From Rhizobium album (lineage in GTDB: Bacteria; Pseudomonadota; Alphaproteobacteria; Rhizobiales; Rhizobiaceae), in assembly GCF_003122325.1 (NCBI RefSeq), contig NZ_QFBC01000017.1, positions 62,001 to 126,000 of the forward strand: a stretch of DNA of 64,000 nucleotides, given 5' to 3'. Under the pieces are notes generated by a model. The model was not told the origin of the DNA and did not search any database. It saw only the letters and a list, made by a program, of their open reading frames with translations. Shown here in pieces: positions 31,486 to 53,201 of this stretch. The translations under genes and the position numbers were made by a program. Positions within the stretch are counted from its first letter, which is position 1, and each line of letters opens with the position of its first letter.

Positions 31486-32226
31486 CTATGCCTCGAATTT
31501 TACCATCGTGCCACCGCCGGTCGCCTGATCGGTCGGGAACACCTCGATGCGGGCGACGTCGACATGCACGGGAAGCACGATCACGTCATGGACGATCTGG
31601 GCGATGTTTTCCGGCTGGATCGGCCGATAGCCGTCGTAGAGCACCGCATTCGCCTGGTTGCCGGGAATGGAGGTGCGGTAGAGCGCCGTCTGCACCCGGC
31701 CGGGCACGATCTCGCTGACCCGCACGGAACTGCCGAGAAGGTCGCAGCGCAGGTTGTCGCAAAACAGGCTGAGGCCGGCCTTGGAGGCACCATAGACGCT
31801 CATCGACGGATAGGGCGCCTGCCCGCCGCTGGAACCGATATAGATGAGATGGCCGCGCTTGCGCGCCACCATGCCGGGCAGCACCATCCGCGTCAGGTGC
31901 ATCGGCGCCTTGAGGTTGATGTCGATCATCGCGTCGATTTCCGCCGGGTCCATGTCCGGAAAGGCAGCACGGGTCGAGAGGATGCCGGCATTGTTGACGA
32001 GAACGTCGACCGCGACGCCATCGAGCGCTTCGGCGATGCGCGCCGTGTCGCGCACATCCGCCTGAACGGCGATCGCGCCGGTCGATGCGGCAAGGGCGGC
32101 GAGTTCCGCCTCGTTGCGGCCGACGGCATAGACGGTGAGGCCCCGGTTGCGCAGCATCGGCACGATGGCCTTGCCGATACCGCTGGTGGCGCCGGTGACC
32201 ACGGCGACGCGATAGGCGTCAGACAT
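31486..32226 (-). CDS. Short-chain dehydrogenase/reductase (SDR)
   Basis: A 246-residue classical SDR. Cofactor motif TGATSGIG at residues 11-18, NNAG near 87, and the catalytic Ser (GSSGG) with Tyr-x-x-x-Lys (YGASK). It overlaps the upstream SDR gene by 8 bp, so the two are translationally coupled. The pair starts from a promoter carrying the GntR-type site at 33006-33031. Acting in sequence on a polyol or hydroxy acid is a reasonable inference; the substrate is unknown. Confidence 0.88.
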
Positions 32227-32968
32227 AGATGTAGCCTCCGCTGATCACGACGTTTTCGCCGGTGGCATAGGTGTTGCGGCCCGATGCCATCATGACGATC
32301 CATTCGGCCATTTCGGCCGGCTCGGCGGCGCGGCCGAGCGCGCTGGCCTTTGCGAGTTCCGGCAGGAAACCAAGCTCCTTGGCGCGATCGGTGGCAAACC
32401 CTGCAGGCGCCACCGAATTGACGAGGATCTGGTCCCTGGCGCATTCCTGGGCGAAGGATTTCGTCAGGCTGACGACGGCGGCCTTCGTCGCGGCATAATG
32501 CGCGTTCTGCGGATGCGCCTTGAAGGCATCGACCGAGGTGATGTTGACGATGCGGCCGGTTACCTCAGGCAGGGTGACGAACTGGCGCATATGGCGCACC
32601 GCCGCCACCATCATATGATAGGTGCCCTTGATGTTGATGGCGTTTTCCAGGTCCCAGTCCTCGTCGGTGATGTCCAGGATGGCCTTGCGGGGATAGATCG
32701 CAGCACTGTTAACCAGCGCAGTGATACGGCCGAGCTTGCCGGCAACCGCGTCGAAGCCTGCGTGCGCCGTCTCGGCCCGGGAGATATCGGCAACCGCGGT
32801 TGCCACTTCCGCGCCGAGTGCCTGCAGGTCCGCTGCGGCGGAGGCGAGCAACACCTCGTTGCGGTCGATGAGGCCGATTTTTGTCGCGCCGTGGGCGATC
32901 ATCAGCTTCGCCGTCACAAGGCCGAGGCCCGAAGCGCCGCCGACGATGACAACAGACTGGTTCTTCAC
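32219..32968 (-). CDS. Short-chain dehydrogenase/reductase (SDR)
   Basis: A 249-residue SDR with VGGASGLG at the cofactor site, NSAA in place of NNAG, the catalytic Ser in NITSVDAF and YAATK. The GTG at 32968 with AGGAAAC just upstream is preferred; an in-frame ATG at 33004 would overlap the operator. It is the first gene of the leftward SDR pair and diverges from the YdiJ-like gene. The NSAA change is seen in some SDR subgroups and need not abolish activity. Confidence 0.87.
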
Positions 32969-33005
32969 GTTTCCTACCTCGCGATTTTCAGGTTGCGCCA
33001 CCATA

Positions 33006-33031
33006 TTGGTATGTTATCACTTATATGCCAA
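33006..33031. promoter_or_regulatory. GntR-type operator, site 1 (SDR pair / ydiJ)
   Basis: A partial dyad of 26 bp begins TTGGTAT and ends ATGCCAA, with core TATCACTTAT at 33015-33024. The same 10-bp core occurs exactly at 45784-45793, and a one-base variant at the gntR promoter. It lies between the divergent SDR and YdiJ-like genes. Confidence 0.65.
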
Positions 33032-33068
33032 CTTGAATGAAGCGCAAGCCGTTTTTGGAACTCTGCCC

Positions 33069-36000
33069 ATGATTCCCCGCCTCGAGACAACAAGGCGCGC
33101 GCCGTTGCGCAGCGCGGGATTCCTCCGGTATCTTGCCGCAGCCGGCCTGGAAGGCGATATCGTCGCGACAGCGGCGGACCGCACGGTATTCTCCACCGAC
33201 AACTCGATCTACCAGGTCGAACCACAGGCCATCGTCTTCCCGAAGACCATCGACGATCTGAAGCGGATTACCAAGGCGCTTGCCCGGCCGGAATTTGCCG
33301 ATAGCGCCATTGCCCCGCGCGGCGGCGGTACGGGCACGAACGGCCAGTCGCTGACGAACGGCATCGTCGTCGACTGCTCGCGCCACATGAACCGCATCCT
33401 GGAGATCGACCCGGTTCGGCGCATCGCCCGGGTCGAGGCCGGCGTCGTCAAGGACCAGCTGAACAAGGCGCTCGCTCCTTACGGACTGTTCTTCGCCCCC
33501 GAACTTTCGACCTCGAACCGCGCCACCATCGGCGGCATGATCTCCACCGATGCCTGCGGACAGGGCTCCTGCCTCTACGGCAAGACGAGCAATCACGTGC
33601 TCGGCCTGCGGATCGTGCTGGCAGACGGTACCGACTTCGTCTCCCGCCCGGTTGCGGACGATGAATTGCGGGTTCTGCAGGCGCGGCAGGACCGTATCGG
33701 CGATATTCACCGCACGCTGGCCCGCATCGCCGCCGAAGACAGCAAGGAGATCGAAAGGATCTTCCCGAAGCTCAATCGTTTCATGACGGGTTACGACCTC
33801 GCCCATATCAGGGACAGGGAGGGGCGCTTCGATCTCAACGCCGTGCTCTGCGGCTCCGAGGGAACGCTGGCGATGATCGCCGAGGCCGAACTCAACCTGT
33901 TGCCCATTCCCGCCTGTGCCGCACTCATCAATATCCGCTACGACGATTTTCAGGCGGCCCTGCAGGATGCGCGCAACCTTGTCAGCCTGTCTGTCGCTTC
34001 GGTGGAGACGGTGGACGAAACGGTGCTGCATCTCGCCAAAGGCGATATCATCTGGCCGCGCATCGCCTCCTTCTTCCCCGACGATGCGGACGGCCAGGCG
34101 AACGGCATCAACATCGCCGAAGTTTTGGCCGACACACCGGAGGAGCTATCGTTGCGGCTTTCCGCCGTTACCGCAGCGCTGGAAGGCAGCCCCTTCCCCG
34201 GCAGGAAGGGATTTACGATCACCCGCGCAAAAGCCGATATCGAGGCCGTCTGGACGATGCGCAAACGAGCTGTCGGCCTGCTCGGCAATGTCGACGGCCC
34301 GATGCGACCGGTGCCCTTCGTCGAGGATACCGCCGTTCCACCGGAAAACCTCGCCGACTACATCGCGGAATTCCGCGCCTTGCTCGATGCGGAGGGACTG
34401 ACCTACGGCATGTTCGGTCATGTGGACGCCGGCGTGCTGCATGTCCGGCCGGCGCTCGACCTGACCCGCCCCGATCACGCAGCACTGGTCCGGCGCATCA
34501 GCGACGCGGTGGTCTCCCTGACGCAAAAATACGGCGGCGTGCTCTGGGGCGAGCATGGCAAGGGGGTGCGGTCGGAGTATGTGCCCGCCTTTTTCGGCCC
34601 GCTCTATCCGCGCCTCCAAGAGATAAAAAAGGCTTTCGATCCGCTCAACCAGCTGAACCCCGGCAAGATCGTCGCGCCGGCAGGCTCGACCTTGCCGAAG
34701 ATCGACGACATCCCGCTGCGGGGCGCCTCCGACCGCATCATCGGCAACGACATCCGCGCCGCCTTCGACAACGCCGCCTATTGCAACGGCAACGGCGCCT
34801 GTTTCGATTTCGATCTCGACGGGCTGATGTGTCCCTCCTACAAGGCGACGGGCGATCGCCGTTTTTCGCCGAAGGGCCGGGCGTCGCTGATGCGCGAATG
34901 GTTGCGGCGGCTGGCAGAAAAAGGTGTCCGGCCGCATGAGGAGGCGGCACGACAGCGGCGGCTGAAAACACCGCTGCAGTTTGCCCGGCGGGTGTGGAAC
35001 ACGCTGAACCCGGTCAATCGCGACGATTTTTCCCACGAGGTTCGTGCGGCGATGGATACCTGTCTCGCCTGCAAGGCCTGCGCCGGGCAATGTCCCGTCA
35101 AGTTCAACGTGCCCGCCTTCCGGGCAAAATTCCTGGAGCTTTATTACGGCCGGTACCTGCGACCGCTGAAAGATCCGCTCATCGCCACCATCGAGACCAT
35201 GTTGCCGCTGATGGCGCGGCTGCGGCCGCTCTACAACCTCTTCGTCACATCGACGCCCGGAAAGGCGGCAATGCGGTTTGCCGGCCTGACGGCCTTGCCC
35301 GCCCTGCCCCCGCTGTCGCTGCGCCGTGCGTTGACCGAGGCCCGGATACCGGTCGCCACGCCGCAGGCATTGGCGGCGTTGAGCCCCGACCAACGGGCGA
35401 GGTCCGTGATTTTCGTGCCGGATGCCTTTACCGAGCATTTCGATCCGCAGATCCTGCTGGATGCCGTGGATATCGCCAGCCGCCTCGGATTTCACGCCTT
35501 CGTCCCGCCGCCGCTGGTCAACGGTAAAGCATTGCATGTGCACGGTTATCTCGGCGCCTTCGAGGTGGCGGCAGGGCGATCCGCCCGGCTGCTCGGCCGT
35601 CTCGCGGAGACCGGCGTGCCGCTGGTCGGCATCGATCCGTCGATGACGCTGACCTATCGCAGCGAATATGCCGGCAGTGCTGCGACCCGGACCGGAGCGC
35701 ATGTCCAGCTTCCCCAGGAATGGCTGGTCACGGCTCTGGAACGCTTCCATGCTCCCGCACCTTCTACCGACCGGCCACCGCATCGGTTGATGGCCCATTG
35801 CACAGAGCGCACCAATGCGCCGGCATCCGCCAATCAATGGAAGGCCGTCTTCGCGAAACTGGGTGTCGACCTTTCCCTCGTCGAGACCGGCTGCTGCGGC
35901 ATGGCCGGCACCTTCGGCCATGAGGTGCGCAATCGCGGCCTTTCCGAAAAACTCTACGGCATGAGCTGGCGGCCGGCGCTGGCTGAGGCGCAGCAGGACG

Positions 36001-36149
36001 ACGTGCTGATGGCGACGGGGTATTCCTGCCGGTCACAGGTCAAGCTGATGGAGAAGCGCCAGATGCCGCATCCCCTGCAGATCATCCGGGCAATTCTTCA
36101 GGAAGAAGCGGCGCTTCCCCTGGAAGAACACGTCATGTATGATATGTGA
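33069..36149 (+). CDS. ydiJ: YdiJ-type FAD- and Fe-S-containing 2-hydroxyacid dehydrogenase
   Basis: A 1026-residue protein, the size of E. coli YdiJ. Residues about 50-260 form an FAD-binding PCMH domain (APRGGGTGTNGQSLTNG), then the FAD-oxidase C-terminal domain (GHVDAGVLHVRP, WGEHGKG). A ferredoxin-like segment has the cysteine motif CLACKACAGQCPVKFNVPAF near residue 660. A C-terminal CCG-type region contains ETGCCGMAGTFGHEV. Relatives oxidise D-2-hydroxyglutarate or D-lactate and reduce quinone. The ATG at 33069 begins the alignable region. The gene ends just before gntR. Confidence 0.88.
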   Translation: MIPRLETTRRAPLRSAGFLRYLAAAGLEGDIVATAADRTVFSTDNSIYQVEPQAIVFPKTIDDLKRITKALARPEFADSAIAPRGGGTGTNGQSLTNGIVVDCSRHMNRILEIDPVRRIARVEAGVVKDQLNKALAPYGLFFAPELSTSNRATIGGMISTDACGQGSCLYGKTSNHVLGLRIVLADGTDFVSRPVADDELRVLQARQDRIGDIHRTLARIAAEDSKEIERIFPKLNRFMTGYDLAHIRDREGRFDLNAVLCGSEGTLAMIAEAELNLLPIPACAALINIRYDDFQAALQDARNLVSLSVASVETVDETVLHLAKGDIIWPRIASFFPDDADGQANGINIAEVLADTPEELSLRLSAVTAALEGSPFPGRKGFTITRAKADIEAVWTMRKRAVGLLGNVDGPMRPVPFVEDTAVPPENLADYIAEFRALLDAEGLTYGMFGHVDAGVLHVRPALDLTRPDHAALVRRISDAVVSLTQKYGGVLWGEHGKGVRSEYVPAFFGPLYPRLQEIKKAFDPLNQLNPGKIVAPAGSTLPKIDDIPLRGASDRIIGNDIRAAFDNAAYCNGNGACFDFDLDGLMCPSYKATGDRRFSPKGRASLMREWLRRLAEKGVRPHEEAARQRRLKTPLQFARRVWNTLNPVNRDDFSHEVRAAMDTCLACKACAGQCPVKFNVPAFRAKFLELYYGRYLRPLKDPLIATIETMLPLMARLRPLYNLFVTSTPGKAAMRFAGLTALPALPPLSLRRALTEARIPVATPQALAALSPDQRARSVIFVPDAFTEHFDPQILLDAVDIASRLGFHAFVPPPLVNGKALHVHGYLGAFEVAAGRSARLLGRLAETGVPLVGIDPSMTLTYRSEYAGSAATRTGAHVQLPQEWLVTALERFHAPAPSTDRPPHRLMAHCTERTNAPASANQWKAVFAKLGVDLSLVETGCCGMAGTFGHEVRNRGLSEKLYGMSWRPALAEAQQDDVLMATGYSCRSQVKLMEKRQMPHPLQIIRAILQEEAALPLEEHVMYDM

Positions 36150-36153
36150 TAAA
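36134..36153. promoter_or_regulatory. GntR-type operator, site 2 (gntR promoter)
   Basis: CATGTATGATATGTGATAAA lies at the end of the ydiJ frame and 31 bases before the gntR start. Its reverse complement carries TATCACATAT. It matches the reverse complement of 45782-45801 at 18 of 20 positions, which suggests autoregulation by the adjacent GntR protein. Confidence 0.7.
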
Positions 36154-36184
36154 TGCAAACTACCGGACAAAGGGCTGTATCGGC

Positions 36185-36916
36185 ATGTCGATCATAACAC
36201 AGCGGGGCAATCTCGCGGAAATCGTCGTCGCCAAGCTTGCCGAACGCATCGACTCCGGACTTTATGCGCCAGGCGAGAAGATACCGTCAAGTGCGCAATT
36301 GTGCGAGGAGTTCGGCGTTTCCCGCACCGTCATCCGCGAGGCGCTGACCTCGCTGAAGGTCGCCGGACGTGTCATCGCCCGGCAGGGCGCTGGCGTCTAT
36401 GTCACAGAAAAGGATGTCAAGACGCTGAATTTCGAGATCAGCCGCATCGACGACATCCGTTCTGCGATGCAGATCCTAGAATTGCGGCTTGGCGTGGAGA
36501 TACAATCGGTGGCGCTTGCCGCCCAGCGCCGCACGCCGGAAGCGCTCGCGGAGATCGCCCGCGCCTTCGATTACATCGAAAACCTCGATACCAACGATGC
36601 GGAGATCGAGGCCCGCGCCGATTTCGAATTCCATCTCGCCATCGCCAAGGCGACACGCAACCCGCATTTCCCGAGCTTTCTGGACGCGGTCATGGGCGAG
36701 ATCAATTTCGACCTGGTGCTGAAACATCGCCAGTCTGGCCGCACCTACAATGCCTATCTCAAGAAGATCAACAAGGAGCATGCCGCCATCCTCGCCGCGA
36801 TCACCCAGGGTGATCCCAAGGCCGCCAAGCAGGCACTGATCGCCCATCTGGAAGAAAGCCTCAACCGCTACCGGCTGATGCTGGACGAGCCGGCGGGCAG
36901 CCAGGCGGAAGACTGA
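36185..36916 (+). CDS. GntR-family (FadR subfamily) transcriptional regulator
   Basis: A 243-residue regulator. The winged helix-turn-helix covers residues about 10-75 (PGEKIPSSAQLCEEFGVSRTVIREALTSLKVAGRV). The all-helical FCD ligand domain follows (RADFEFHLAIAKATRNPHF and NKEHAAILAAITQGDPKAA), with metal-binding His candidates in these segments. The ATG at 36185 starts the aligned region. It sits centrally among the genes whose promoters carry the same site and is the probable local regulator of the 31.5-51 kb catabolic block. Confidence 0.92.
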   Translation: MSIITQRGNLAEIVVAKLAERIDSGLYAPGEKIPSSAQLCEEFGVSRTVIREALTSLKVAGRVIARQGAGVYVTEKDVKTLNFEISRIDDIRSAMQILELRLGVEIQSVALAAQRRTPEALAEIARAFDYIENLDTNDAEIEARADFEFHLAIAKATRNPHFPSFLDAVMGEINFDLVLKHRQSGRTYNAYLKKINKEHAAILAAITQGDPKAAKQALIAHLEESLNRYRLMLDEPAGSQAED

Positions 36917-36939
36917 TCGCCGCGTTTAACGCGGCGATC
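36915..36939. terminator. Hairpin terminator between gntR and the ThDP enzyme gene
   Basis: A perfect 25-bp palindrome: arms GATCGCCGCGTT (36915-36926) and AACGCGGCGATC (36928-36939) around one T. It begins in the gntR stop codon and lies between convergent genes, so it can end transcription from both sides. Confidence 0.75.
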
Positions 36940-36959
36940 TATGAAGTCGAAGCCCAATC

Positions 36960-38645: not shown

Positions 38646-38662
38646 GTCAGTCTCCTCAGCCG

Positions 38663-39868
38663 TTAAATGACGGCATCCTCTAGGAACGGCCGGTTCGCGA
38701 CGACGCGCTCATAGCCGAAGGGCGAAAGGTCGAGCGTCTTGAAGCCGCCATAGGTGATCAGTTCGGAAAGCCCTCGCCCCATCGCCGGCGATTGCTGCAG
38801 GCCGTGGCCTGAAAAGCCGTTGGCGAACAGGAAATTCTTCACCGCGCCGTGCGGGCCAAGAATGACGTTGTGGTCGAGCGTGCAATAGTCGTAGTGCCCG
38901 GCCCAGCTGTTGACCACCTTGATCGCCTCGAAGGCCGGTACCCGGCCGGCCAGCGTCGGCCAGATTTCGTCCTCGAACTCGTCATGCATCACGGCGAAAT
39001 CGGTGGGATCGACCTCCGGATCGTGCTTTGGATAGGTGCCCATCAGGTAGAACTTGCCTTCCGGGCGGAAGAATACGCCGGTTGGATCGATAGTCAGGCC
39101 GACGCCGGGACCGAGCGGTGTGCGGCAATCGACGACGAACAGCGAGCGGCGGCGCGGTTCGACGGGAATGTCGAGGCCGGCCATGCGGGCAACCTTCTTG
39201 CCGTTGGTGCCGGAGGTGTTGACGAGCGTGCCGCAGGCGATCGTCTGGCCGCCCTTCGTTGTTACCGAGACGATACGATCACCCTCGCGGTGTACGGCGA
39301 CGACCTCGTCCTCGATATATTCGACGCCGAGCGTGCGGGCCTTCTTGCGGAAACCCTGGAGCAGGCCGACGCTATCGAACCAGCCCTCGCCGCGTTCGCC
39401 GGCGCTGCCGAGCGTCAGGCCTTCGGTGTTGAGCCATGGGAAGCGCTTCCCCAGCCCTTCCGGGTCGAGCAGCGACACTTCGGCACCACAGGCGATCTGC
39501 GTATCATGGTTGCGGCGCAGCACATCCGCGCCGCGCTCGTCGCCGGCGAGGAACAGGTAGCCGTTCTCGTGGAAACCGATCTCGGGCGTATCGTCATCGA
39601 CGGCGACGTTTTCCTTGAAATTGCGGATGAACTCGGTGCCGAATTGCGAAACCTGCACGTTGATCGCATTGGAGAACTGGTGGCGGATCGAACTGGAGGA
39701 CAGCGCCGTCGCCGAACGCTGGTAGGTCCAGTCCTTCTCGATGACCAGCACCGAGCCGGTGAAATCGGGATTGGTCGCCAGGAAATAGGCCGTGGCACTG
39801 CCGACCACGGCACCACCGACGATGATCACGTCATACGAAGTCTTCGAAGCCTGCATCGCCGCGCTCAC
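38663..39868 (-). CDS. DAO-family FAD-dependent oxidoreductase (FOXRED1/sarcosine-oxidase-like)
   Basis: A 401-residue FAD oxidoreductase. Dinucleotide motif VIIVGGAVVGSATAYFLA at residues 14-31, then RRSLFVVDCRTPLG and a C-terminal HYDYCTLDHNVILGPHG with NGFSGHGLQQSPAMGRGLSE, which match the FOXRED1/sarcosine oxidase beta group. Such enzymes oxidise secondary or N-methyl amines such as sarcosine. Its start overlaps the end of the uronate-dehydrogenase-like gene by 4 bp (ATGA). The substrate is not established. Confidence 0.88.
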   Translation of the reverse strand: MSAAMQASKTSYDVIIVGGAVVGSATAYFLATNPDFTGSVLVIEKDWTYQRSATALSSSSIRHQFSNAINVQVSQFGTEFIRNFKENVAVDDDTPEIGFHENGYLFLAGDERGADVLRRNHDTQIACGAEVSLLDPEGLGKRFPWLNTEGLTLGSAGERGEGWFDSVGLLQGFRKKARTLGVEYIEDEVVAVHREGDRIVSVTTKGGQTIACGTLVNTSGTNGKKVARMAGLDIPVEPRRRSLFVVDCRTPLGPGVGLTIDPTGVFFRPEGKFYLMGTYPKHDPEVDPTDFAVMHDEFEDEIWPTLAGRVPAFEAIKVVNSWAGHYDYCTLDHNVILGPHGAVKNFLFANGFSGHGLQQSPAMGRGLSELITYGGFKTLDLSPFGYERVVANRPFLEDAVI

Positions 39869-40677: not shown

Positions 40678-40690
40678 GGTGTTTCCCTCT

Positions 40691-41902: not shown

Positions 41903-43557
41903 GCCTTTTCTCCCGCCTTGCCGTAGAGTGCAGCCTGTTCCGCGGTGATATATCCGTGCTTGACGTCATGGGCGACCGCGTCCGCCGGGCGTGTGGCCGG
42001 ATCGCCGTATCCGCCGCCGCCGGGCAAGGAGAGGACGAGCCGCCGGCCTTCCGGCACGAATTGCAGGCCCTTGCCCTTCAGCACCGTACCGTCGTCGAGC
42101 GCCACGCAGCCCGCGGCGCCGTCGAGACCGCCGTCGCGGCCGCGGGCCGGATGGTTCAGGCGGTCGAACATGGCGGAGAAGCGGAACGAGAAGCCTTCGG
42201 CCGCTTCGATCTCGATCATCTGGCCGAGACCGCCGCGTTGCGCGCCGGCGCCGCCGGAGCCTTCGCGCAGTTCCTTGCGCCAGACGATGACCGGGCCGAC
42301 ATTCTCCGTCGCCTCGATCGGCATGGTATGCACGCCGCTCGGAAAAGCCGTGGCATTCAGGCCGTCGAGCGATGCGCGCGCGCCGGAACCACCGGAATTG
42401 AACATCAGGATTTCGGCACCTTTTCCGCCGATCTGGTCGGAGACGGGGCGAACGCTCATATGCAGGTTCCACAAGGCGCTGGCGCCTTCCGCCGGCACCT
42501 GGCCGGGCAGCGCCTGATGCAGGGCGCCGAGCACCAGGTCGGGGACGAAATGGCCGAGCACATGGCGCACGGCAACAGGTGCCGGGCGTTTGGCGTTCAG
42601 GATGCAGCCTTCCGGCGCGGCGACGTCGAAGGGTGCGAGCGAAGCGGCATTGTTGGGAATGTCCGGCGCGAGGACACATTTGATGCCGTAGCAGGCATAG
42701 GCCTTGGCATAAACGAGCGGCACGTTGATACCGAACTTGCTCATGCCCGAGGTGCCATCGAAATCGACCAGCACGCCGTCGGCGCCGATGGTGAGTTTTG
42801 CCGCCAGATGCACTGGTTCGTCGTAGCCGTCGAGGTCGAGGCTGTAGGACCAACTGCCGTGCGGAAGATTGTGAAGGCGCTCCAGCGTCGCCTCGCGGCT
42901 GTGCTTGAGGATGAAGCCGCCGATCATCGAGAGATCGTCTAGATTGAACTCCGTCAGCATGTCGATCAGGCGGCGGTGGCCGGTCTCGTTGCAGGCCGCC
43001 AGCGCGTGGAAATCGCCGACCACCTTGTCGTTTTCGCGCACATTGTTGCGCACGATATGGATGAGCGTGCGGTTCAGTTCGCCGCGCTCGAAGAACTTCA
43101 TGATCGGGATGAAGAGGCCTTCTTCATAGACTTCCCGCGCATCCGGCCCGAAACCGCGCCCGCCGACATCGACGACATGGGCGGTGGAGGCAAAATAACC
43201 GACCAGCCTGCCATGGTGGAAGGACGGCGTGACGACGGTGATGTCGTGCAGGTGACCGGTGCCCTTCCAGGGATCGTTGGTGATGTAGACATCGCCTTCG
43301 AAGATGTTTTCCGGGCCTATGTCGCGGATGAAATGCGCGACCGACTCGGCCATGGCGTTGACGTGGCCCGGCGTGCCGGTGACGGCCTGCGCCAGCATGC
43401 GGCCTTCGAGGTCGAAGACGCCGGCGGACAGGTCGCCCGCCTCGCGGACCGAGGTGGAGAAGGCGGTGCGGATCAGCGTCTGGGCCTGCTCTTCCACCAC
43501 GGAGATCAGGCGGTTCCACATGACCTGCATGTGGATATCGATCATCGATTGAGTCAT
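41899..43557 (-). CDS. hyuB: Hydantoinase B/oxoprolinase-family subunit
   Basis: A 552-residue HyuB protein: EAGDLSAGVFDLEGRMLAQ, HVNAMAESVAHF, TNDPWKGTGHLHDI, TAHVVDVGG and the C-terminal LSLPGGGGYGDP. The ATG at 43557 has GAGG upstream and replaces a longer frame. HyuB with HyuA forms ATP-dependent cyclic-amide hydrolases (5-oxoprolinase, N-methylhydantoinase) or acetone-carboxylase-like carboxylases. It is the second gene of the operon, 11 bp after hyuA, and its end overlaps the aminotransferase start. Confidence 0.9.
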   Translation of the reverse strand: MTQSMIDIHMQVMWNRLISVVEEQAQTLIRTAFSTSVREAGDLSAGVFDLEGRMLAQAVTGTPGHVNAMAESVAHFIRDIGPENIFEGDVYITNDPWKGTGHLHDITVVTPSFHHGRLVGYFASTAHVVDVGGRGFGPDAREVYEEGLFIPIMKFFERGELNRTLIHIVRNNVRENDKVVGDFHALAACNETGHRRLIDMLTEFNLDDLSMIGGFILKHSREATLERLHNLPHGSWSYSLDLDGYDEPVHLAAKLTIGADGVLVDFDGTSGMSKFGINVPLVYAKAYACYGIKCVLAPDIPNNAASLAPFDVAAPEGCILNAKRPAPVAVRHVLGHFVPDLVLGALHQALPGQVPAEGASALWNLHMSVRPVSDQIGGKGAEILMFNSGGSGARASLDGLNATAFPSGVHTMPIEATENVGPVIVWRKELREGSGGAGAQRGGLGQMIEIEAAEGFSFRFSAMFDRLNHPARGRDGGLDGAAGCVALDDGTVLKGKGLQFVPEGRRLVLSLPGGGGYGDPATRPADAVAHDVKHGYITAEQAALYGKAGEKA

Positions 43558-43568
43558 CGGTCCAATCC

Positions 43569-45650
43569 TCAAATCCGGGTGACGAGCAGGCAACCGTCGT
43601 TCTGGACGACGGCCTTGAAGGAAGCGGTGAGCGCGGCGGACGTCTCGCGCTCGACGATGACGGCGGGGCCTTTCACCACGTCGCCGGGCTTCAGGCCATC
43701 GCGCTCATGGATGCCGGCATCGAGGAAGGCACCCTGCGCGGCTTCGAACAGCCGCCGGGTCTTGGCCGGCGTCACGACATCGCCCTCGGCGACGGCAGCG
43801 ACACGGGCGACCGGCGGCAGAGGCGAGCTTGCCTTGACCGACCAGCTGACGATCTCGACATCAAGGCCTTCGATGGCGCGGCCGAAGAAGCGCTCATATT
43901 CCGCTTCGAACTGGGCGGCGATCTTTTCCGCGCTGCGGGCGTCGAATGTTTCCGTTTCGAGCGGAACGGGGATATCCCAGCCCTGGCCGGCATACCGCAT
44001 GAACAGCGTCCGCTCGATCACCGGCTCGGCAGCATCGAGCCCGCCCTCGACGAAACCGAGCGCTTCCGCCTGCATGGCCGCGACCAGCCGGTTGGCCTCG
44101 GCAAAATCGAAATCGGAAAGGTTGAAGACCGCGCTGCGCACGGACTCGTAGCCGAACGGCGCGCGCAAGAAGCCGATGGCGGAGCCGACGCCGGCGCCCG
44201 CGGGCACGAGGAATTTGGAAATGCCCATCTTCTCGCAGAGACGGGCGGCATGCAATGGCCCGGCGCCACCGAAGGTGATCATGGTGAAATCGGCGATGTT
44301 CTTGCCGTTCTCGACCGTATGGACGCGGCCGGCATTGGCCATGTTTTCATCCACCATCTCGCAGGTGCCGTAGGCGGCACCATCCGCATCGAGACCGATT
44401 GCGGCACCGATCTCGTCCTGCATGGCGGTCCGGCTGGCCTCGACCGACAGCGGAATTGCGCCGCCGGCAAAATTGTCGGGATCGAGCTTGCCGAGGATCA
44501 GGTCAGCGTCGGTGACGGTCGGATGCTTGCCGCCGCGCTGGTAGCAGGCAGGTCCGGGTTCGGACGCTGCCGAATGTGGTCCAACGCGGATCTGGCGCAT
44601 GCCGTCGATCGAGGCGATGGAGCCGCCGCCGGCGCCGATTTCCACCATTTCCACCACCGGAATGGAGATCGGCATGCCGGAGCCCTTGCGGAAACGATAG
44701 GTGCGGGCAACCTCGAAGGTCTTGGCCGTCTTCGGCACCTGGTTTTCGATCAGGCAGATCTTCGCCGTCGTGCCGCCCATGTCGAAGGACAGGACCGTGT
44801 CGAGACCGTGGCGGCGGGCGATGTCGGCGGCAAAGATCGCGCCGCCCGCCGGGCCGGATTCGACGAGCCGCACCGGGAATTCCGAAGCGCTTTCGACCGA
44901 GACGATGCCCCCGCCGGAGTGGATCATGAAGACCGGACAACCGACGCCGATCTCTTTCAGCGAGACGACGAGGCGGTCGAGATAAGACTTGATCGCCGGC
45001 TTGACGTAGGCATTGGCGCAGACGGTGTTGAAGCGTTCGAATTCGCGCATCTGCGGAGAAACTTCCGAGGAAATCGACACGGAGACATGCGGCAGGCGCT
45101 TCAGGATGGCATCGCGGACCGCCGCCTCATGCGCGCCGTTGGTATAGGCATGGATGAAGCCGATGGCGACGCTCTCATACCCGCCTTCGCTTATGGCGGC
45201 GACGACGGCAGCCACGGAAGCCTCGTCCAGCGGCAACAGCACCTTGCCGGCCGCATTCATCCGCTCGCGCACGGTAAAGCGGTCGGCACGGGCGATCAGC
45301 GCCGCCGGCAGGACGATGTTGAGGTCGTATTGCTCGAAGCGGTTTTCGGTGCGCATCTCCAGAACGTCGCGAAAACCTTCGGTCGTGACGAAGGCGGTTC
45401 TGGCGCCGCGGCGCTCGATCAGTGCATTGGTGGCAAGCGTCGTGCCGTGGATGAGCAGGTCGATCTGCGAAAGCGCGATCCCCGCCATCTCTGCCACGTC
45501 CGCGACACCCTTGAGGATGGCCCGTTCCGGGGCCTTGTAGTCGGTCAGGACCTTGGTCGAATGGAGCGCGCCATCCAGATCGAGGGCGATATCCGTGAAG
45601 GTGCCGCCGATATCGACGCCCACCCTGCAGTTCCGTGGCGTATTAGTCAC
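43569..45650 (-). CDS. hyuA: Hydantoinase A/oxoprolinase-family ATP-binding subunit
   Basis: A 693-residue HyuA protein. The nucleotide motif VGVDIGGTFTD is at residues 10-20, then HGTTLATNALIERRGARTAFVTTEGF, SFDMGGTTAKI and GAGGGSIA. The GTG at 45650 with GGGGA upstream is the likely start; longer frames add a stretch unlike the family. HyuA phosphorylates the amide or keto group. As first gene of a six-gene leftward operon it diverges from the LivK-type gene, with the shared operator between. The ring substrate is unknown. Confidence 0.9.
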   Translation of the reverse strand: MTNTPRNCRVGVDIGGTFTDIALDLDGALHSTKVLTDYKAPERAILKGVADVAEMAGIALSQIDLLIHGTTLATNALIERRGARTAFVTTEGFRDVLEMRTENRFEQYDLNIVLPAALIARADRFTVRERMNAAGKVLLPLDEASVAAVVAAISEGGYESVAIGFIHAYTNGAHEAAVRDAILKRLPHVSVSISSEVSPQMREFERFNTVCANAYVKPAIKSYLDRLVVSLKEIGVGCPVFMIHSGGGIVSVESASEFPVRLVESGPAGGAIFAADIARRHGLDTVLSFDMGGTTAKICLIENQVPKTAKTFEVARTYRFRKGSGMPISIPVVEMVEIGAGGGSIASIDGMRQIRVGPHSAASEPGPACYQRGGKHPTVTDADLILGKLDPDNFAGGAIPLSVEASRTAMQDEIGAAIGLDADGAAYGTCEMVDENMANAGRVHTVENGKNIADFTMITFGGAGPLHAARLCEKMGISKFLVPAGAGVGSAIGFLRAPFGYESVRSAVFNLSDFDFAEANRLVAAMQAEALGFVEGGLDAAEPVIERTLFMRYAGQGWDIPVPLETETFDARSAEKIAAQFEAEYERFFGRAIEGLDVEIVSWSVKASSPLPPVARVAAVAEGDVVTPAKTRRLFEAAQGAFLDAGIHERDGLKPGDVVKGPAVIVERETSAALTASFKAVVQNDGCLLVTRI

Positions 45651-45976
45651 CGTTTCGTTCCCCACATGCACGCGCCGTTCGGCGCCTGACCTCATCCGGC
45701 GCGGTAGCCGGCGAAGCTTCTGGCGCACCAGTTTTCACAGCCGGCGCGCCGAAGCAAGATTTCTGCTTGACGGATTTTGGATATATCACTTATCATACAT
45801 GTGTCAACTTAATTTATGGCCCGATTGCGACGGATTAAACGTCTCAATCGCGACATGAGATCGGCTGCCGGACGACCGGAAACGGTGCCGTTCCATGCCC
45901 AAGAAACAAGCCGAACGCGGATCAACCGCGCGCCACATGAAAGAAGATCAACGGCTTAACCAGAGGGAAGCCCTTC
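45651..45976. other. 326-bp divergent promoter region between hyuA and the LivK-type gene
   Basis: The region carries the GntR-type site at 45782-45801 within an AT-rich stretch (about 45770-45840), and the LivK-side leader with a purine-rich segment before 45977. No gene of its own is evident. Confidence 0.6.
45782..45801. promoter_or_regulatory. GntR-type operator, site 3 (hyuA / LivK promoter)
   Basis: TATATCACTTATCATACATG contains the core TATCACTTAT shared exactly with site 1, and its reverse complement agrees with site 2 at 18 of 20 positions. It sits between the divergent catabolic operon and the importer operon and may control both. Confidence 0.7.
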
Positions 45977-47092
45977 ATGACTCATTTTTCGAAACTCCTT
46001 GCAGCAACGGCCATCGTTTCCTCCCTTCTCCTCTCCCCGACCTTTGCCGCCGACACCATCAAGATCGGGGTCGCCGGTCCGTTTACCGGCGCCAACGCCA
46101 CATTCGGCGAGCAGGTCTTCAACGGCGTCTCCGCCTATGTGAACGATGTGAACGCTGCCGGCGGCATCAACGGCAAGCAGATCGAGCTGGTGAAGGGCGA
46201 TGACGCCTGCGAACCCAAGCAGGCCGTCGCCGTCGCCAACCGCTTCGTCGACCAGGACAAGGTGCAGGCGGTGATCGGCCATTTCTGCTCGTCGAGCACG
46301 ATCCCCGCTTCCGAAATCTACAATGATGCCGGCATCCTGGAGATGACCCCGTCCTCGACCAACCCGACGGTGACCGACCGCGGCTTCGACAACCTGTTCC
46401 GCGGATGCGGCCGCGACGACCAGCAGGCCGTCGTCGCCGGTGGTTTCATCCTCGATACGCTGAAGCTCGACAAGATCGCCCTGATCCATGACAAGGACAC
46501 CTATGGCCAGGGCCTGGTGGATGCCGTCAAGAAGACCATCGAGGCTCGTGGCATCACGCCGGTTCTCTACGAAGGCCTGACGCGCGGCGAGCGCGACTTC
46601 AACGCGCTCGTCACCAAGATCAAGAGCACCGGCGCCAACGCCGTCTATTTCGGCGGCCTCATTCCTGAAGGCGGGCCGCTGGTTCGCCAGCTGAAGGAAC
46701 AGGGCGTCGACGTCGCTTTCGTCACCGGCGACGCCTTTGCCCAGGCGGAACTCGTGGCTGCCGCCGGCGGTGCCGCCAACCTGAAGAACGTCTATTATTC
46801 CGCCACTCCGGATCCGCTCGCCGACCCGTCGACCAAAGGTGTCCAGGATGCCCTGACCAAGGCCAACATCACGCCCGCAAACTACGTGCTCTACGGTTAC
46901 GCCAATGCGCAGGCGGTCGTCGCGGCGCTCAAGGCTGGCGAAGACCTGAAGGCGCAGGCCGATTGGCTGCGCGGCAACACGGTCGATTCCGCCATCGGCA
47001 AGATCACCTGGGATGAGAAGGGCGACATCAAGGACTTCAAGTTCGTCTTCTACACCTTCGACGACAAGGGAACCCCCGTTCTCGTCCAGTAA
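45977..47092 (+). CDS. Branched-chain amino-acid-type ABC transporter substrate-binding protein
   Basis: A 371-residue LivK-like periplasmic protein. Signal peptide residues 1-24 (ending TFA), mature start ADTIKIGVAGPFTGANATFGEQ, then AVIGHFCSSSTIPASEIYNDAG and LIHDKDTYGQGL. The family binds aliphatic or aromatic amino acids, amides and related compounds. Its ligand should be the substrate of the co-regulated pathway. It heads the importer operon LivK-H-M-G-F. Confidence 0.93.
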   Translation: MTHFSKLLAATAIVSSLLLSPTFAADTIKIGVAGPFTGANATFGEQVFNGVSAYVNDVNAAGGINGKQIELVKGDDACEPKQAVAVANRFVDQDKVQAVIGHFCSSSTIPASEIYNDAGILEMTPSSTNPTVTDRGFDNLFRGCGRDDQQAVVAGGFILDTLKLDKIALIHDKDTYGQGLVDAVKKTIEARGITPVLYEGLTRGERDFNALVTKIKSTGANAVYFGGLIPEGGPLVRQLKEQGVDVAFVTGDAFAQAELVAAAGGAANLKNVYYSATPDPLADPSTKGVQDALTKANITPANYVLYGYANAQAVVAALKAGEDLKAQADWLRGNTVDSAIGKITWDEKGDIKDFKFVFYTFDDKGTPVLVQ

Positions 47093-47173
47093 AGGCAGGC
47101 CTGCCCAGATCGGCCGGGCATGCGTGTCCGGCCGGCTTCTCCATGCCCGCAAAAAAATCAAGAGGGGTTCGCC

Positions 47174-48091
47174 ATGGACGTCTATATCCTGGCCCAGCAA
47201 TTGTTCAACGGCATCACGCTCGGCACCATCTACGGTCTGATCGCCGTCGGATACACCATGGTCTATGGTGTCATCCGCATGATCAACTTCGCCCATGGCG
47301 ACGTCTACATGGTCTCGGCCTATATCGCCGCGATCACCCTTGCCGTTCTCGCCTTCTTCGGCATCCAGTCCGTTCCCTTCGCCCTGGTCTCCGTATTGGT
47401 GATCAGCTGCGCGGTCACGGCGGTCTATGGCTGGGCGATCGAACGGGTGGCCTACCGGCCCTTGCGCGGTTCGACGAAACTCGCCCCGCTGATCTCCGCC
47501 ATCGGCATATCGCTGATGCTGCAGAGTTACGTGCAGATCTCGCAAGGCGCGCGTGACCAGGGCGTGCCGACGCTGATCCAGGGTGCATTCCGCTTCGGCG
47601 ATGCGGTTCATTTCGCCCAGATCACCTACATGCAGACGGTCATCCTGTTCGCCTCGCTGATCGCCATGGGCATCCTCACCTACGTGATCAATTACACCCG
47701 CATCGGCCGCCAATGCCGGGCGACGCAGCAGAACATCCGCATGTCGGCGGTGCTGGGGGTCAACACCGACCGCATCATCTCGACGGTCTTCGTCATCGGC
47801 GCCGCAACCGCCGCCGTCGGCGGCACGCTCGTCACCTTCAATTATGGCTCGTTCAATTTCTTCATCGGCTTCGTCATGGGCATCAAGGCCTTTACCGCCG
47901 CCGTTCTCGGCGGCATCGGCTCGCTACCCGGCGCCGTGCTGGGCGGCGTCCTGCTCGGGCTGACCGAAGCCCTGTTTGCCGGTTATGTCAGCACCGACTA
48001 CAAGGACGTCTTCGCTTTCGCCCTGCTGATCCTCCTGCTGTTCTTCCGTCCCTACGGCCTGCTCGGCCGGGCGGAAATCCAGAAAGTGTGA
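47174..48091 (+). CDS. livH: Branched-chain amino-acid-type ABC transporter permease, LivH
   Basis: A 305-residue permease with about eight membrane segments and the LivH family blocks QQLFNGITLGTIYGLIAVGYTM, INFAHGDVYM and GIKAFTAAVLGGIGSLPGAVLGG. The ATG at 47174 follows AGAGGGG. It pairs with the LivM subunit, whose gene starts 8 bp downstream. Confidence 0.93.
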   Translation: MDVYILAQQLFNGITLGTIYGLIAVGYTMVYGVIRMINFAHGDVYMVSAYIAAITLAVLAFFGIQSVPFALVSVLVISCAVTAVYGWAIERVAYRPLRGSTKLAPLISAIGISLMLQSYVQISQGARDQGVPTLIQGAFRFGDAVHFAQITYMQTVILFASLIAMGILTYVINYTRIGRQCRATQQNIRMSAVLGVNTDRIISTVFVIGAATAAVGGTLVTFNYGSFNFFIGFVMGIKAFTAAVLGGIGSLPGAVLGGVLLGLTEALFAGYVSTDYKDVFAFALLILLLFFRPYGLLGRAEIQKV

Positions 48092-48099
48092 GGGGCCGC

Positions 48100-49407
48100 A
48101 TGGAAACGAACCGCTTCCCGGCTTTGCTCAAGCAAGCCCTGCTCACCTTCACCGTTTCGCTCATCCTGTTCGGGCCGATTTCTGGCCTTGTTCTTGACGG
48201 TTTCAGCTTCCGCAACGAACTGATGCGCGCCGTCCTGCTCGCCGCCGTCGTCACTGCAGGGCGTGTGGCGATCTCGCTTGTGCAGATGACCGGTTTCGGC
48301 CAAAAGCTCTCAAGCCGGATGACCGACAGGGGCGCCGGCGTCACCGTGCTGACCGGCCAGGAAAAATCGCCGGTCCTGCTCCTGGTTCTCCTGTTCGTGG
48401 CGGGCCTCAGCCTGCCCTTCTTCACCGACAAATATTTCCTCGGCATCGCCATCCTGGCACTGATCTACTGCCTGCTCGGGCTGGGACTGAACATCGTCGT
48501 CGGCCTCGCCGGCCTGCTGGATCTCGGCTTCGTCGCCTTTTATGCCGTCGGCGCCTATCTGCTGGCACTCGGCGCGCAATATCTCGGCCTCGGCTTCTGG
48601 AGCGCGCTGGTCATCGCGCCGTTCGTTGCCGGGCTGTGCGGCATGATCCTCGCCTTCCCTGTCTTGAAGATGCATGGCGATTATCTCGCCATCGTCACGC
48701 TGGGTTTTGGCGAAATCATCCGCCTGGTGCTCAACAACTGGCTAGAATTCACCGGCGGCCCCAACGGCGCCCCGGTGCCGGCGCCGACCTTTCTCGGCCT
48801 GGAATTCACCCGCACCGCGAAGCAGGGCGGCGTGCCGATCCATGACTATTTCGGCATTGCCTACAGCGCCGACTACAAGTTCTGGTTCATCTATCTCGTG
48901 TTGTTCCTCGTCGTCTGCCTCGTCATCTATGCGGTCGAACGGCTACGGGTAATGCCGCTCGGCCGCATGTGGGAAGCCTTGCGCGAGGACGAGATCGCCT
49001 GCCGGTCGCTTGGCGTCAACCACGTCTTCACCAAGCTGACGGCCTTCATGCTCGGCGCCTCCACAGGCGGCCTTGCCGGCGTCTTCTTCGCCGTCCACCA
49101 GGGTTTCGTGAACCCGACGTCCTTCACCTTCTTCGAATCGGCCCTGATCCTCGCCATCGTCGTGCTCGGCGGTCTCGGCTCGACGGTCGGCGTCATCGCC
49201 GCTGCCCTCGTACTGACCATCCTGCCGGAACTGCTGCGCGACTTCGCCGAATACCGCGTGCTGATCTTCGGCATCATGATGGTGGTGATGATGATCTGGA
49301 AGCCGCGCGGCCTCGTTCGCATCCGGCGTCCGGCATTCTTCCCGAGTGCGGCGGCGGATGGCGGTGAAGCGTTGCCTGCGGCCGGCAAGGCGGAGGCGGC
49401 ACGATGA
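48100..49407 (+). CDS. livM: Branched-chain amino-acid-type ABC transporter permease, LivM
   Basis: A 435-residue permease, longer than LivH because of an N-terminal extension with two extra membrane segments, as in rhizobial LivM. Core blocks: YCLLGLGLNIVVGLAGLLDLGFVAFYAVGAY, FPVLKMHGDYLAIVTLGFGEI, ALREDEIACRSLGVN. The start at 48100 is the first ATG after the livH stop. Its last four bases overlap the livG start. Confidence 0.93.
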   Translation: METNRFPALLKQALLTFTVSLILFGPISGLVLDGFSFRNELMRAVLLAAVVTAGRVAISLVQMTGFGQKLSSRMTDRGAGVTVLTGQEKSPVLLLVLLFVAGLSLPFFTDKYFLGIAILALIYCLLGLGLNIVVGLAGLLDLGFVAFYAVGAYLLALGAQYLGLGFWSALVIAPFVAGLCGMILAFPVLKMHGDYLAIVTLGFGEIIRLVLNNWLEFTGGPNGAPVPAPTFLGLEFTRTAKQGGVPIHDYFGIAYSADYKFWFIYLVLFLVVCLVIYAVERLRVMPLGRMWEALREDEIACRSLGVNHVFTKLTAFMLGASTGGLAGVFFAVHQGFVNPTSFTFFESALILAIVVLGGLGSTVGVIAAALVLTILPELLRDFAEYRVLIFGIMMVVMMIWKPRGLVRIRRPAFFPSAAADGGEALPAAGKAEAAR

Positions 49408-50222
49408 GCCAGCCGCTTCTCGACGTCCGCAACGTCACCATGCGCTTCGGCGGCATCGTCGCCAACCGGGATGTCAGTTTTAGCGTCGAACGAGGCGCCG
49501 TCACCGCCCTCATCGGGCCGAACGGTGCCGGCAAGACGACGATGTTCAACTGCATCACCGGCTTCTACCGCGCCAGCGAGGGCCAGATCCTGCTCGACGG
49601 CGCGGACGGGCCGCAGGACCTCGGCGCCCTGATGATCCGGCCGATCACCGGCGGCTCGCATCTCGTCACCCGCGCCGGAATCGCCCGGACCTTCCAGAAC
49701 ACCCGGCTTTTCAAGGAAATGTCCGTGGTCGAGAACCTGCTGGTCGCCCAGCACAGGGTGACGGCCAACAATCTCCTGAGCGGCGTCTTCCAGACCTCCG
49801 CCTTCCGCCGCGCCGAACGCGAGGCCGTCGATCGGGCCTATTACTGGCTCCGGGAGATGAACCTCGCCGATGACGCCAACCGGCTGGCCGGAGAACTGCC
49901 CTACGGCCGGCAGCGACGCCTGGAAATCGCCCGCGCCATGTGCACCGGCCCGCGGCTGATCTGCCTCGACGAACCGGCGGCCGGCCTCAACCCGTCGGAA
50001 ACCCGGGAACTGTCCGAGGTGATAAAACGGCTCTGCATCGTGCATGGCCAGACGGTTCTCGTCATCGAGCACGACATGGGGCTGGTCATGCGCATTTCCA
50101 ACCATGTCGTCGTGCTCGACCACGGCGAGGTGATTTCGGACGGCACGCCCGAACATGTCGCCAACGATCCCGCCGTCATTGCCGCCTATCTGGGTGTGAG
50201 CGAAGAGGAGATGAAGGCATGA
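49404..50222 (+). CDS. livG: Branched-chain amino-acid-type ABC transporter ATP-binding protein, LivG
   Basis: A 272-residue ATPase. Walker A GPNGAGKTT, LivG-type Q-loop region IARTFQNTRLF, a signature region with YGRQRRLEIARA (in place of the standard LSGGQ), Walker B LICLDEPAAGLNPSE and a switch His in VIEHDMG. The ATGA overlap with livM and a 4-bp overlap with livF mark coupled translation. Confidence 0.94.
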   Translation: MSQPLLDVRNVTMRFGGIVANRDVSFSVERGAVTALIGPNGAGKTTMFNCITGFYRASEGQILLDGADGPQDLGALMIRPITGGSHLVTRAGIARTFQNTRLFKEMSVVENLLVAQHRVTANNLLSGVFQTSAFRRAEREAVDRAYYWLREMNLADDANRLAGELPYGRQRRLEIARAMCTGPRLICLDEPAAGLNPSETRELSEVIKRLCIVHGQTVLVIEHDMGLVMRISNHVVVLDHGEVISDGTPEHVANDPAVIAAYLGVSEEEMKA

Positions 50223-50953
50223 GCGAAGCGTCCGAAAACACCGTTCCGCTTCTGGAATTTTCCGACGTCCATGCCCATTACGGCCCGGTGGAAGCGCTGA
50301 AAAGCGTCAATGTCCATATTCACAAGGGCGAGATCGTCAGCCTGATCGGCGCCAACGGCGCCGGCAAGACGACGCTCCTCTCCTCGATCTTCGGCGCGCC
50401 GCGCGCTTCGGCGGGGAGAATCCTGCACAAGGGTGAAGACATTTCCCGTCTTCCGACCAACCGGATTTCCCGCCGCGGCATCGCGCTGGTGCCCGAAGGC
50501 CGGCAGATCTACCAGGACATGACGGTCGAGGAGAACATGATGATGGGCACCACGGCGATCGGCATGGAACATTTTGCCGAAGACCGCACCGCCATGTTCG
50601 AGCTCTTCCCACGCCTCAAGGAACGGCGCAGCCAGACCGCCGGCACCATGTCGGGCGGCGAACAGCAGATGCTCGCCATCGCCCGTGCGATGATGGCCCG
50701 GCCGGAACTCATCCTGTTCGACGAGCCGTCGCTCGGCCTTGCTCCGCTGGTGGTCAAGCGCGTCTTCGAAGTACTGCGGGAGATCGCCGCCATGGGCAAG
50801 ACCATCTTCCTCGTCGAGCAGAACGCCAACCACGCGCTGAAACTGTCGCAGCGCGCCTATGTCATGGTCAACGGCCGGATCCATCTCTCCGGCGAAAGCG
50901 CCGCTCTTCTCGACAATGAAGAGGTTCGCAAGGCCTATCTCGGCCTGCACTGA
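50219..50953 (+). CDS. livF: Branched-chain amino-acid-type ABC transporter ATP-binding protein, LivF
   Basis: A 244-residue ATPase. Walker A GANGAGKTT, LivF-type blocks RGIALVPEGRQIYQDMTVEENM, signature SGGEQQMLAIARA and Walker B LILFDEPSLGLAP. It completes the five-gene importer. Its start at 50219 overlaps livG by 4 bp. Confidence 0.94.
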   Translation: MSEASENTVPLLEFSDVHAHYGPVEALKSVNVHIHKGEIVSLIGANGAGKTTLLSSIFGAPRASAGRILHKGEDISRLPTNRISRRGIALVPEGRQIYQDMTVEENMMMGTTAIGMEHFAEDRTAMFELFPRLKERRSQTAGTMSGGEQQMLAIARAMMARPELILFDEPSLGLAPLVVKRVFEVLREIAAMGKTIFLVEQNANHALKLSQRAYVMVNGRIHLSGESAALLDNEEVRKAYLGLH

Positions 50954-51964: not shown

Positions 51965-52108
51965 CCCATCGATCCATATGGCATCGCCTGACCGAGCCGG
52001 GTCGGGCGATGCCGCTTCGGGTATCCTGCCCTCTGCTGCGTGGCAGTGATCCATCTTCCTGCGTCCATGCGGCCACCTTCCGCGCATTGAATACTCTATG
52101 TGTTTGAT

Positions 52109-52130: not shown

Positions 52131-52147
52131 TGGCCGAAGGAACAGAG

Positions 52148-53185: not shown

Positions 53186-53201
53186 CGCTGCAGCCATACA
53201 A

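Follow-up and report, generated by a model that had tools for sequence, protein, structure and literature searches.

In Pseudomonas, the pipecolate branch of lysine catabolism (AmaA, AmaB) is outlined, in excerpts of a 2026 paper, as leading from pipecolate through piperideine-6-carboxylate (P6C) to aminoadipate, and the same excerpts describe information on hydroxylysine catabolism as scarce (PMC12930750). In the caprolactam pathway, the caprolactamase CapAB is described as opening a lactam in an ATP-dependent reaction that is followed by transamination (PMC6061476, excerpt). Uronate dehydrogenase converts a uronate into its 1,5-lactone, and the lactone has been described bound in the enzyme (PMC6353982, excerpt). 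E. coli YdiJ is reported, in the available part of one study, to be strict for D-2-hydroxyglutarate (PMC9504171). Here we analyse a 64,000-nucleotide stretch of Rhizobium album DNA (the window; NZ_QFBC01000017.1, positions 62,001 to 126,000), in which one block (31486–50953) encodes a FadR/GntR (FCD) regulator, a LivKHMGF importer and relatives of these enzymes. We propose, with a probability of about 0.5, that the block is a regulon for importing and oxidising a hydroxylated six-membered imino acid, most likely trans-5-hydroxypipecolate.

Candidate operators confined to the cluster

The core TATCAC(T/A)TAT, which the original prediction had located in three promoter regions of the block, was found at all three places. 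Site 1 (33006–33031; core 33015–33024, plus strand) lies between the genes of a short-chain dehydrogenase (SDR2) and YdiJ, site 2 (36134–36153, minus strand; core 36142–36151) is in front of gntR itself, as had been claimed, and site 3 (45782–45807; core 45784–45793, plus strand) is in the hyuA/livK intergenic region; the claimed agreement of sites 2 and 3 at 18 of 20 bases also held. The exact 10-mer occurs three times in the 6,864,676-base genome, each time inside this ~13-kb block, and is thus not common at unrelated genes, which would have counted against a regulon. Its genome-wide expectation is 1.8 (first-order Markov model, estimated from the window), and the core written backwards occurred once. 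The naive Poisson probability of at least three cores in 12.8 kb is 6.5e-9, an optimistic guide given that the choice of motif followed its discovery. A further candidate at 52120–52129, which differs from the core at one base, scored at background with the matrix and was rejected.

Conservation was examined in one scan of GTDB contigs that gave 48 loci, of which 36 (L034–L069) with GntR orthologues were kept (81–96% identity over the best segment, which in L069 is broken); the other 12, being distant, were set aside. The nearest relatives of the locus come from Shinella and related Rhizobiaceae. Site 1 reached at least 25 bits in 35 of the 36 loci, site 2 at least 20 bits in 23 and site 3 at least 20 bits in 26, with a matrix built from these same loci, so that the scores are not independent; we regard exact-core matches in relatives as plainer evidence. 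The top score in 20 mononucleotide-shuffled windows was 18.2 bits. The genomes of 14 relatives contained 55 cores, 29 inside the compared loci and 26 elsewhere, against 31 for the backwards control, which places the motif at background outside the cluster in these genomes.

The core belongs to a longer inverted repeat with imperfect arms, of which it is the best-conserved half. At the third site of nine of the 36 loci the repeat is perfect (CACTTAT-CAT-ATAAGTG), and in L046 and L055 it extends to TGTCACTTAT-CAT-ATAAGTGTCA with 9 of 10 arm pairs. In the window, the right arm of site 3 has decayed, site 1 has a different arm pair, TTGGTAT/ATGCCAA, flanking its core, and site 2 covers the last codons and the stop codon of ydiJ, whose reading frame ends at 36149. 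Site 2 is intact in four of the seven loci without YdiJ (L043, L044, L048 and L056) and diverged in three (L041, L058 and L062); because it is kept in those four, coding constraint alone is insufficient to explain it. On a contig of the L043 genome other than the cluster's, two TATCACATAT sites lie on opposite strands with their starts 23 bases apart (G680:C22:58813-58845).

Site 3 follows the catabolic operon rather than the importer. The loci that carry it are exactly the 26 with DAO and UDHl (described below) at 75% or more, and none of the other ten has it; in those ten the catabolic operon may lie past the ~20 kb of DNA compared. This count leaves out an extra 21-bit match in L056 (at 9555), which is site 1 of that locus read on the opposite strand. 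Site 3 is also present in loci without an adjoining LivK (L041, L043, L044 and L062), and where LivK directly follows gntR (L038, L039, L040, L042 and L066) no site of at least 20 bits was found upstream of LivK. The latter speaks against control of LivK by the predicted operator; in favour of it, a sigma-70-like promoter pair directed toward LivK in the window overlaps site 3, including its promoter-like -10.

The gntR gene (36185–36916, plus strand) encodes a protein in which the GntR winged-helix (PF00392) and FCD (PF07729) domains both score over their cut-offs; it reaches no equivalog cut-off, the score for LldR being 121 versus 311 bits. We propose that this protein, the presumed repressor of all three sites, would bind the inverted repeat (best form TGtCACTTAT-CAT-ATAAGTGtCA) at the SDR2/ydiJ, gntR and hyuA/livK promoters and would be released by the substrate or a pathway intermediate. 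Repression would be the natural reading of an operator that overlaps a promoter, and at sites 1 and 2, where the promoter scan of the window gave no overlapping sigma-70-like pair, promoter blocking is a prediction.

Another regulator might instead bind the motif, or the motif might mark conserved promoters without being a GntR operator, but we consider this quite improbable. The operator is putative, with GntR binding predicted from sequence, and a Paraburkholderia cluster (L082) whose GntR protein is 44% identical has only a weak look-alike (9.6 bits, CACTCATCATATG), upstream of hyuA. Against this, the sites follow loci with orthologous GntR genes, one of them precedes gntR, and for two clusters that adjoin a LysR-type gene, L083 and L084, the matrix scan gave no site in the cluster promoters. 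A GntR relative (40%) is also present in L083, and an AT-rich match of 21.7 bits occurs in L084 at 3584, ~3 kb from its cluster.

Together, comparison with the 36 loci supports a cluster-confined regulon with one regulator, one importer and eight enzymes from nine genes, where the original prediction gave about ten enzymes. Such a regulon almost certainly exists, and the GntR protein of the block is very probably its regulator; that the whole system serves one compound is what we infer. Of 72,556 plasmid records searched at E 1e-60, 61 contained the regulator, in 60 cases with an identity of at least 80%, and many of these plasmids were isolated from legume nodules. In some Shinella (L124 and L040) the GntR-SDR-SDR-YdiJ-Liv arrangement is kept with a different catabolic operon (DAO 60%) within ~8 kb; that of L124 comes with a separate LysR-type gene, which gives the impression of an exchange of modules. 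The predicted operator could serve as a simple sensor, if the inducer is found.

Enzymes of the block and the proposed lactam route

Gene content was as originally described: two SDRs, YdiJ, GntR, LivKHMGF and a six-gene operon, which we assign as a thiamine pyrophosphate (TPP) enzyme, a DAO-family FAD oxidoreductase (DAO), a uronate-dehydrogenase-like protein (UDHl), a class I aminotransferase (AAT), HyuB and HyuA. Where the earlier reading recognised no pathway, a specific outline can now be given, with substrate and reactions predicted. LivKHMGF would import the substrate, and DAO would oxidise the ring N-CH2 to a hydroxy-piperideine-6-carboxylate, hydration of which would give a cyclic hemiaminal. 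UDHl would oxidise this hemiaminal to a lactam, much as uronate dehydrogenase takes a lactol to the 1,5-lactone, and HyuAB would open the lactam with ATP to give 5-hydroxy-2-aminoadipate. AAT would then produce 5-hydroxy-2-oxoadipate, which the TPP enzyme would decarboxylate to 2-hydroxy-5-oxopentanoate. An aldehyde dehydrogenase, present in related clusters and here represented by copies elsewhere in the genome, would yield D-2-hydroxyglutarate, and YdiJ would oxidise this to 2-oxoglutarate. We regard the underlying chemistry, from cyclic imine through lactam to amino dicarboxylate, as probable, and a 5-hydroxypipecolate as substrate as close to an even bet. By stereochemical reasoning, the 5R carbon of trans-5-hydroxypipecolate would become the R carbon of D-2-hydroxyglutarate.

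Two of the enzymes pass equivalog or subfamily cut-offs. YdiJ (33069–36149, plus strand) scored 1456 bits against NF049975 (cut-off 1350), and the acetolactate-synthase-like TPP enzyme (PRK08199; 36960–38645, minus strand), the proposed 2-oxo-acid decarboxylase, scored 922 bits against NF006052 (cut-off 539). DAO, UDHl, AAT and HyuAB, all on the minus strand, reach none. DAO (38663–39868), the proposed hydroxypipecolate oxidoreductase, has as its closest solved relative 1y56_B, which we take to be an L-proline dehydrogenase subunit; an AlphaFold2 model built from 15 orthologues was poor (mean pLDDT 46). AAT (40691–41902) is nearest to aspartate aminotransferase B (6f35, 463 bits), which would be fitting for a dicarboxylic amino acid. 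HyuB (41899–43593; PF02538) and HyuA (43569–45728, start uncertain; PF05378/PF01968) carry the Hydantoinase_B, Hydant_A_N and Hydantoinase_A domains, which place them in the hydantoinase/oxoprolinase superfamily, and are the proposed subunits of an ATP-dependent lactamase; the closest solved relatives of HyuA are an N-methylhydantoinase (7hk5) and 5-oxoprolinase. Against the caprolactamase alpha and beta models, with cut-offs of 1000 bits, HyuA scored 465 and HyuB 174 bits. The genome holds one UDHl (E 1e-10), one YdiJ (E 1e-40) and one such DAO (E 1e-30).

The 'epimerase' protein UDHl (39865–40680, minus strand) is the proposed cyclic-hemiaminal (imine) to lactam dehydrogenase, and its closest solved relatives are uronate dehydrogenases. 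We aligned 65 rows, 37 with DAO, AAT or HyuAB nearby (the window copy included) and 28 without. The catalytic Ser/Tyr/Lys are kept in all 37 cluster-linked rows, as is the Arg174 position (27 of the 28 others), which we take to bind the carboxylate in uronate dehydrogenase. The Asn112 position, presumably a sugar contact, is Val in 36 of the 37 cluster-linked rows and in 2 of the 28 others, 22 of which have Asn. UDHl thus shares the catalytic triad and Arg174 with uronate dehydrogenases and departs from them at the sugar-contact position. The hydrate of piperideine-6-carboxylate can be viewed as the nitrogen analogue of a pyranuronate: the ring heteroatom sits between the carbon to be oxidised and the one that bears the carboxylate.

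In Paraburkholderia, Paracoccus, Pseudochrobactrum and, partly, Haematobacter, the core enzymes recur together with different regulators and importers. Several related clusters contain a candidate gene for the aldehyde step that the window block lacks, and some have a D-2-hydroxyglutarate-dehydrogenase-like enzyme in place of an absent YdiJ. In R. anhuiense and Rhizobium SL42 the Liv operon continues into aldehyde dehydrogenase and electron-transfer flavoprotein (ETF) genes, and an aldehyde dehydrogenase follows LivF in L038, L039, L042 and L066; neither gene type was found beside LivF in R. leguminosarum RCAM1365. Ahead of the TPP gene, the clusters of Paracoccus yeei, Paracoccus MA and Paraburkholderia encode both an aldehyde dehydrogenase and a GlcD-type enzyme. 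Five cluster aldehyde dehydrogenases were scanned (three from Rhizobium, one each from Paracoccus and Paraburkholderia; those of L121 and L128 were left out). All five were closest to 2-oxoglutarate-semialdehyde/2,5-dioxovalerate dehydrogenases, at 480–536 bits without reaching the cut-offs of 750–770, versus 348–373 bits for succinate-semialdehyde dehydrogenase. The window genome has two 81%-identical copies outside the block. Among solved structures, the Paracoccus yeei GlcD-type enzyme scored highest with 3pm9, an unnamed oxidoreductase (341 bits), and next with human D-2-hydroxyglutarate dehydrogenase, the best named relative (238 bits), ahead of D-lactate dehydrogenase (146 bits); it is 27% identical to YdiJ over the shared domain, and Paraburkholderia has a 66% relative of it in the run aldehyde dehydrogenase-FAD-TPP-AAT.

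On the Burkholderia vietnamiensis plasmid pBVIE01, a DAO relative (48% identity) adjoins an aldehyde dehydrogenase that exceeds the NCBIfam threshold for L-piperidine-6-carboxylate dehydrogenase (808 versus 730 bits), with ETF genes ~1.6 kb away. Within the 25-kb stretch around this DAO we found no UDHl or HyuAB, and the YdiJ-like protein there is far below the YdiJ cut-off (493 versus 1350). This one neighbourhood suggests pipecolate chemistry for the DAO branch. Two further DAO relatives add nothing to the scheme: that of Mesorhizobium ciceri (44%) lies in an oxoprolinase/proline-racemase neighbourhood, and that of Haematobacter in a stretch with no annotated aminotransferase, TPP enzyme or SDR pair. 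Near the DAO of an unannotated Azospirillum we found a Liv-type importer and no other match to a window gene.

The importer is complete, as predicted, with all five subunits in order: LivK (45977–47092) followed by LivH, LivM, LivG and LivF (47174–50953), on the plus strand. The closest solved relative of LivK is 3ip5, which we take to be Atu2422, binding GABA and proline. The importer is the most variable part of the system. In Paraburkholderia, three Paracoccus, Pseudochrobactrum, R. anhuiense and Shinella PSBB067, the cluster has an amino-acid-type importer as its neighbour; a dipeptide/nickel-type importer adjoins that of Shinella HZN7, a TRAP-type importer lies ~3 kb from that of Pararhizobium A13, and none was found beside those of R. 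jaguaris and Haematobacter.

SDR1 (31486–32226; distantly YdfG-like) and SDR2 (32219–33004; FabG-like, true start possibly near 32971), both on the minus strand, perhaps invert or oxidise ring hydroxyls. Adjoining SDR1 is a pyrroline-5-carboxylate (P5C)-reductase-family gene (30418–31206, minus strand; NF005063, 335 bits, cut-off 254), which puts a reductase of cyclic imines alongside a pathway proposed to run through one; it also occurs in seven of the 36 relatives and in L120 and L124. After the block, 51110–55016 holds an SDR, an Ldh-type dehydrogenase, a DapA-type aldolase and a second GntR regulator, and in L057 relatives of this regulator and of DapA directly follow LivF. Further on, 57890–60751 (minus strand) carries beta-ketoadipate genes for 3-oxoadipyl-CoA thiolase and 3-oxoacid CoA-transferase subunits.

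Weighing the substrate

Several points weigh against the proposed scheme. The weakest are that the two SDRs, found in 34 of the 36 loci, have no role in it and that the aldehyde dehydrogenase is missing from the window block, with the two copies elsewhere in the genome lacking the motif. YdiJ was not found beside 7 of the 36 loci, and Paracoccus seriniphilus has the aldehyde dehydrogenase with no D-2-hydroxyglutarate-dehydrogenase-like (GlcD-type) gene at the expected place; an FAD-linked oxidase lies ~9 kb past its DAO. The HyuAB scores, well short of the caprolactamase cut-offs, do not point to any particular lactam. For UDHl, the residue roles are ones we presume, the rows are mostly close relatives and hence not independent, and the outside rows were seen with ~1.5 kb of flank, so that a cluster around some of them may have been missed. 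Asn112 is retained in one cluster-linked row (L095), and at the position we equate with Ser75 of uronate dehydrogenase the cluster-linked rows vary (P 14, G 13, A 5, S 5). Comparison shows the conserved sites, the arrangement of the clusters and the family assignments; GntR binding, repression, the inducer, the reactions and the substrate are predictions. Nor is a lactam route the sole way to handle hydroxylysine-type compounds, because Pseudomonas fluorescens is said, in excerpts of PMC12930750, to degrade 5-hydroxylysine by ordinary lysine pathways.

The alternative that fares best, though unlikely, is the same lactam route acting on a five-membered ring, trans-4-hydroxyproline or a relative, and ending in D-malate. 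The chemistry would be identical, the solved structure closest to DAO is the presumed L-proline dehydrogenase subunit, and a P5C-reductase-family gene stands beside SDR1. Yet the aldehyde dehydrogenases of the clusters are closer to C5 (2,5-dioxovalerate) than to C4 enzymes, and the DAO relative in Burkholderia adjoins a P6C dehydrogenase. E. coli YdiJ, moreover, is described as inactive on D-malate, although other D-2-hydroxyglutarate dehydrogenases do act on it (both from the available part of PMC9504171).

Somewhat less likely still is plain L-pipecolate, or lysine via pipecolate, degraded through 2-aminoadipate and 2-oxoadipate to glutarate. The Burkholderia DAO neighbourhood would suit it well, but it gives no use to the D-2-hydroxyglutarate dehydrogenases found in two different architectures, and the genome's own P6C dehydrogenase, encoded elsewhere, would make an ATP-costly lactam route redundant.

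We give a little less weight again to a polyhydroxylated imino-sugar acid or another uronate-like compound that forms a lactam. The grouping of UDHl with uronate dehydrogenases would agree with it, as would the variation of importers between clusters (dipeptide/nickel, TRAP or none adjoining), and the two SDRs could oxidise the extra hydroxyls; the near-uniform Val at the Asn112 position in cluster-linked UDHl and the amino-acid-type importers beside several of the clusters named above point away from it. In the open-licence literature, no paper was found that contained both deoxynojirimycin and Shinella.

Classical degradation of a hydantoin or an N-carbamoyl amino acid, which the label 'hydantoinase-type' had suggested and to which the N-methylhydantoinase relative of HyuA might point, was set aside as very improbable, since no carbamoylase is among the genes identified in the block, DAO and UDHl would be superfluous, and the HyuAB family also opens lactams, as described for caprolactamase (PMC6061476, excerpt).

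Comparison with known systems

Generalising the 5-hydroxypipecolate scheme, we tentatively suggest, at somewhat less than even odds, a route from hydroxylated pipecolate to 2-oxoglutarate via a lactam, with a re-purposed uronate dehydrogenase and an ATP-dependent lactamase. The route would be plasmid-borne in legume symbionts, Shinella, Paracoccus and Paraburkholderia, and its regulator, importer and D-2-hydroxyglutarate dehydrogenase would each be exchangeable. If true, this would assign a substrate, a compound related to hydroxylysine, and an order of steps to a gene set common on rhizobial plasmids, would give a uronate-dehydrogenase relative a use on nitrogen rings, and would make D-2-hydroxyglutarate a catabolic intermediate rather than a by-product. 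Among the matches listed in the open-licence literature, there was no description of this cluster, of rhizobial hydroxypipecolate catabolism or of a pipecolate lactam route. The parts are of known kinds; their combination and the pipecolate lactam route are, as far as searched, new.

The regulator resembles FadR/GntR (FCD) catabolic repressors such as LldR in its domain make-up, the site before its own gene and the divergent promoters, and differs in scoring below the LldR equivalog cut-off. YdiJ matches the D-2-hydroxyglutarate dehydrogenase model over its full length, above the equivalog cut-off, and lies here in a catabolic gene set, whereas E. coli and Pantoea YdiJ are tied, in the available part of PMC9504171, to D-2-hydroxyglutarate made by SerA. 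UDHl shares with uronate dehydrogenase of the oxidative hexuronate pathway its family, the catalytic Tyr/Lys and the Arg174 position, and would likewise oxidise a ring carbon next to the ring heteroatom; it differs in the changed sugar-contact position and in its linkage to DAO, HyuAB and AAT. As in the caprolactam pathway, a HyuAB-family enzyme would open a lactam ahead of an aminotransferase, but HyuA and HyuB fall short of the CapAB equivalog cut-offs, the aminotransferase is aspartate-type and UDHl would generate the lactam inside the cell. Finally, the Pseudomonas pipecolate branch shares the proposed course from pipecolate through piperideine-6-carboxylate to aminoadipate, and a DAO relative stands beside a P6C dehydrogenase in Burkholderia; here, UDHl (forming the lactam) and HyuAB (hydrolysing ATP) would replace P6C dehydrogenase, and the route would end in D-2-hydroxyglutarate.

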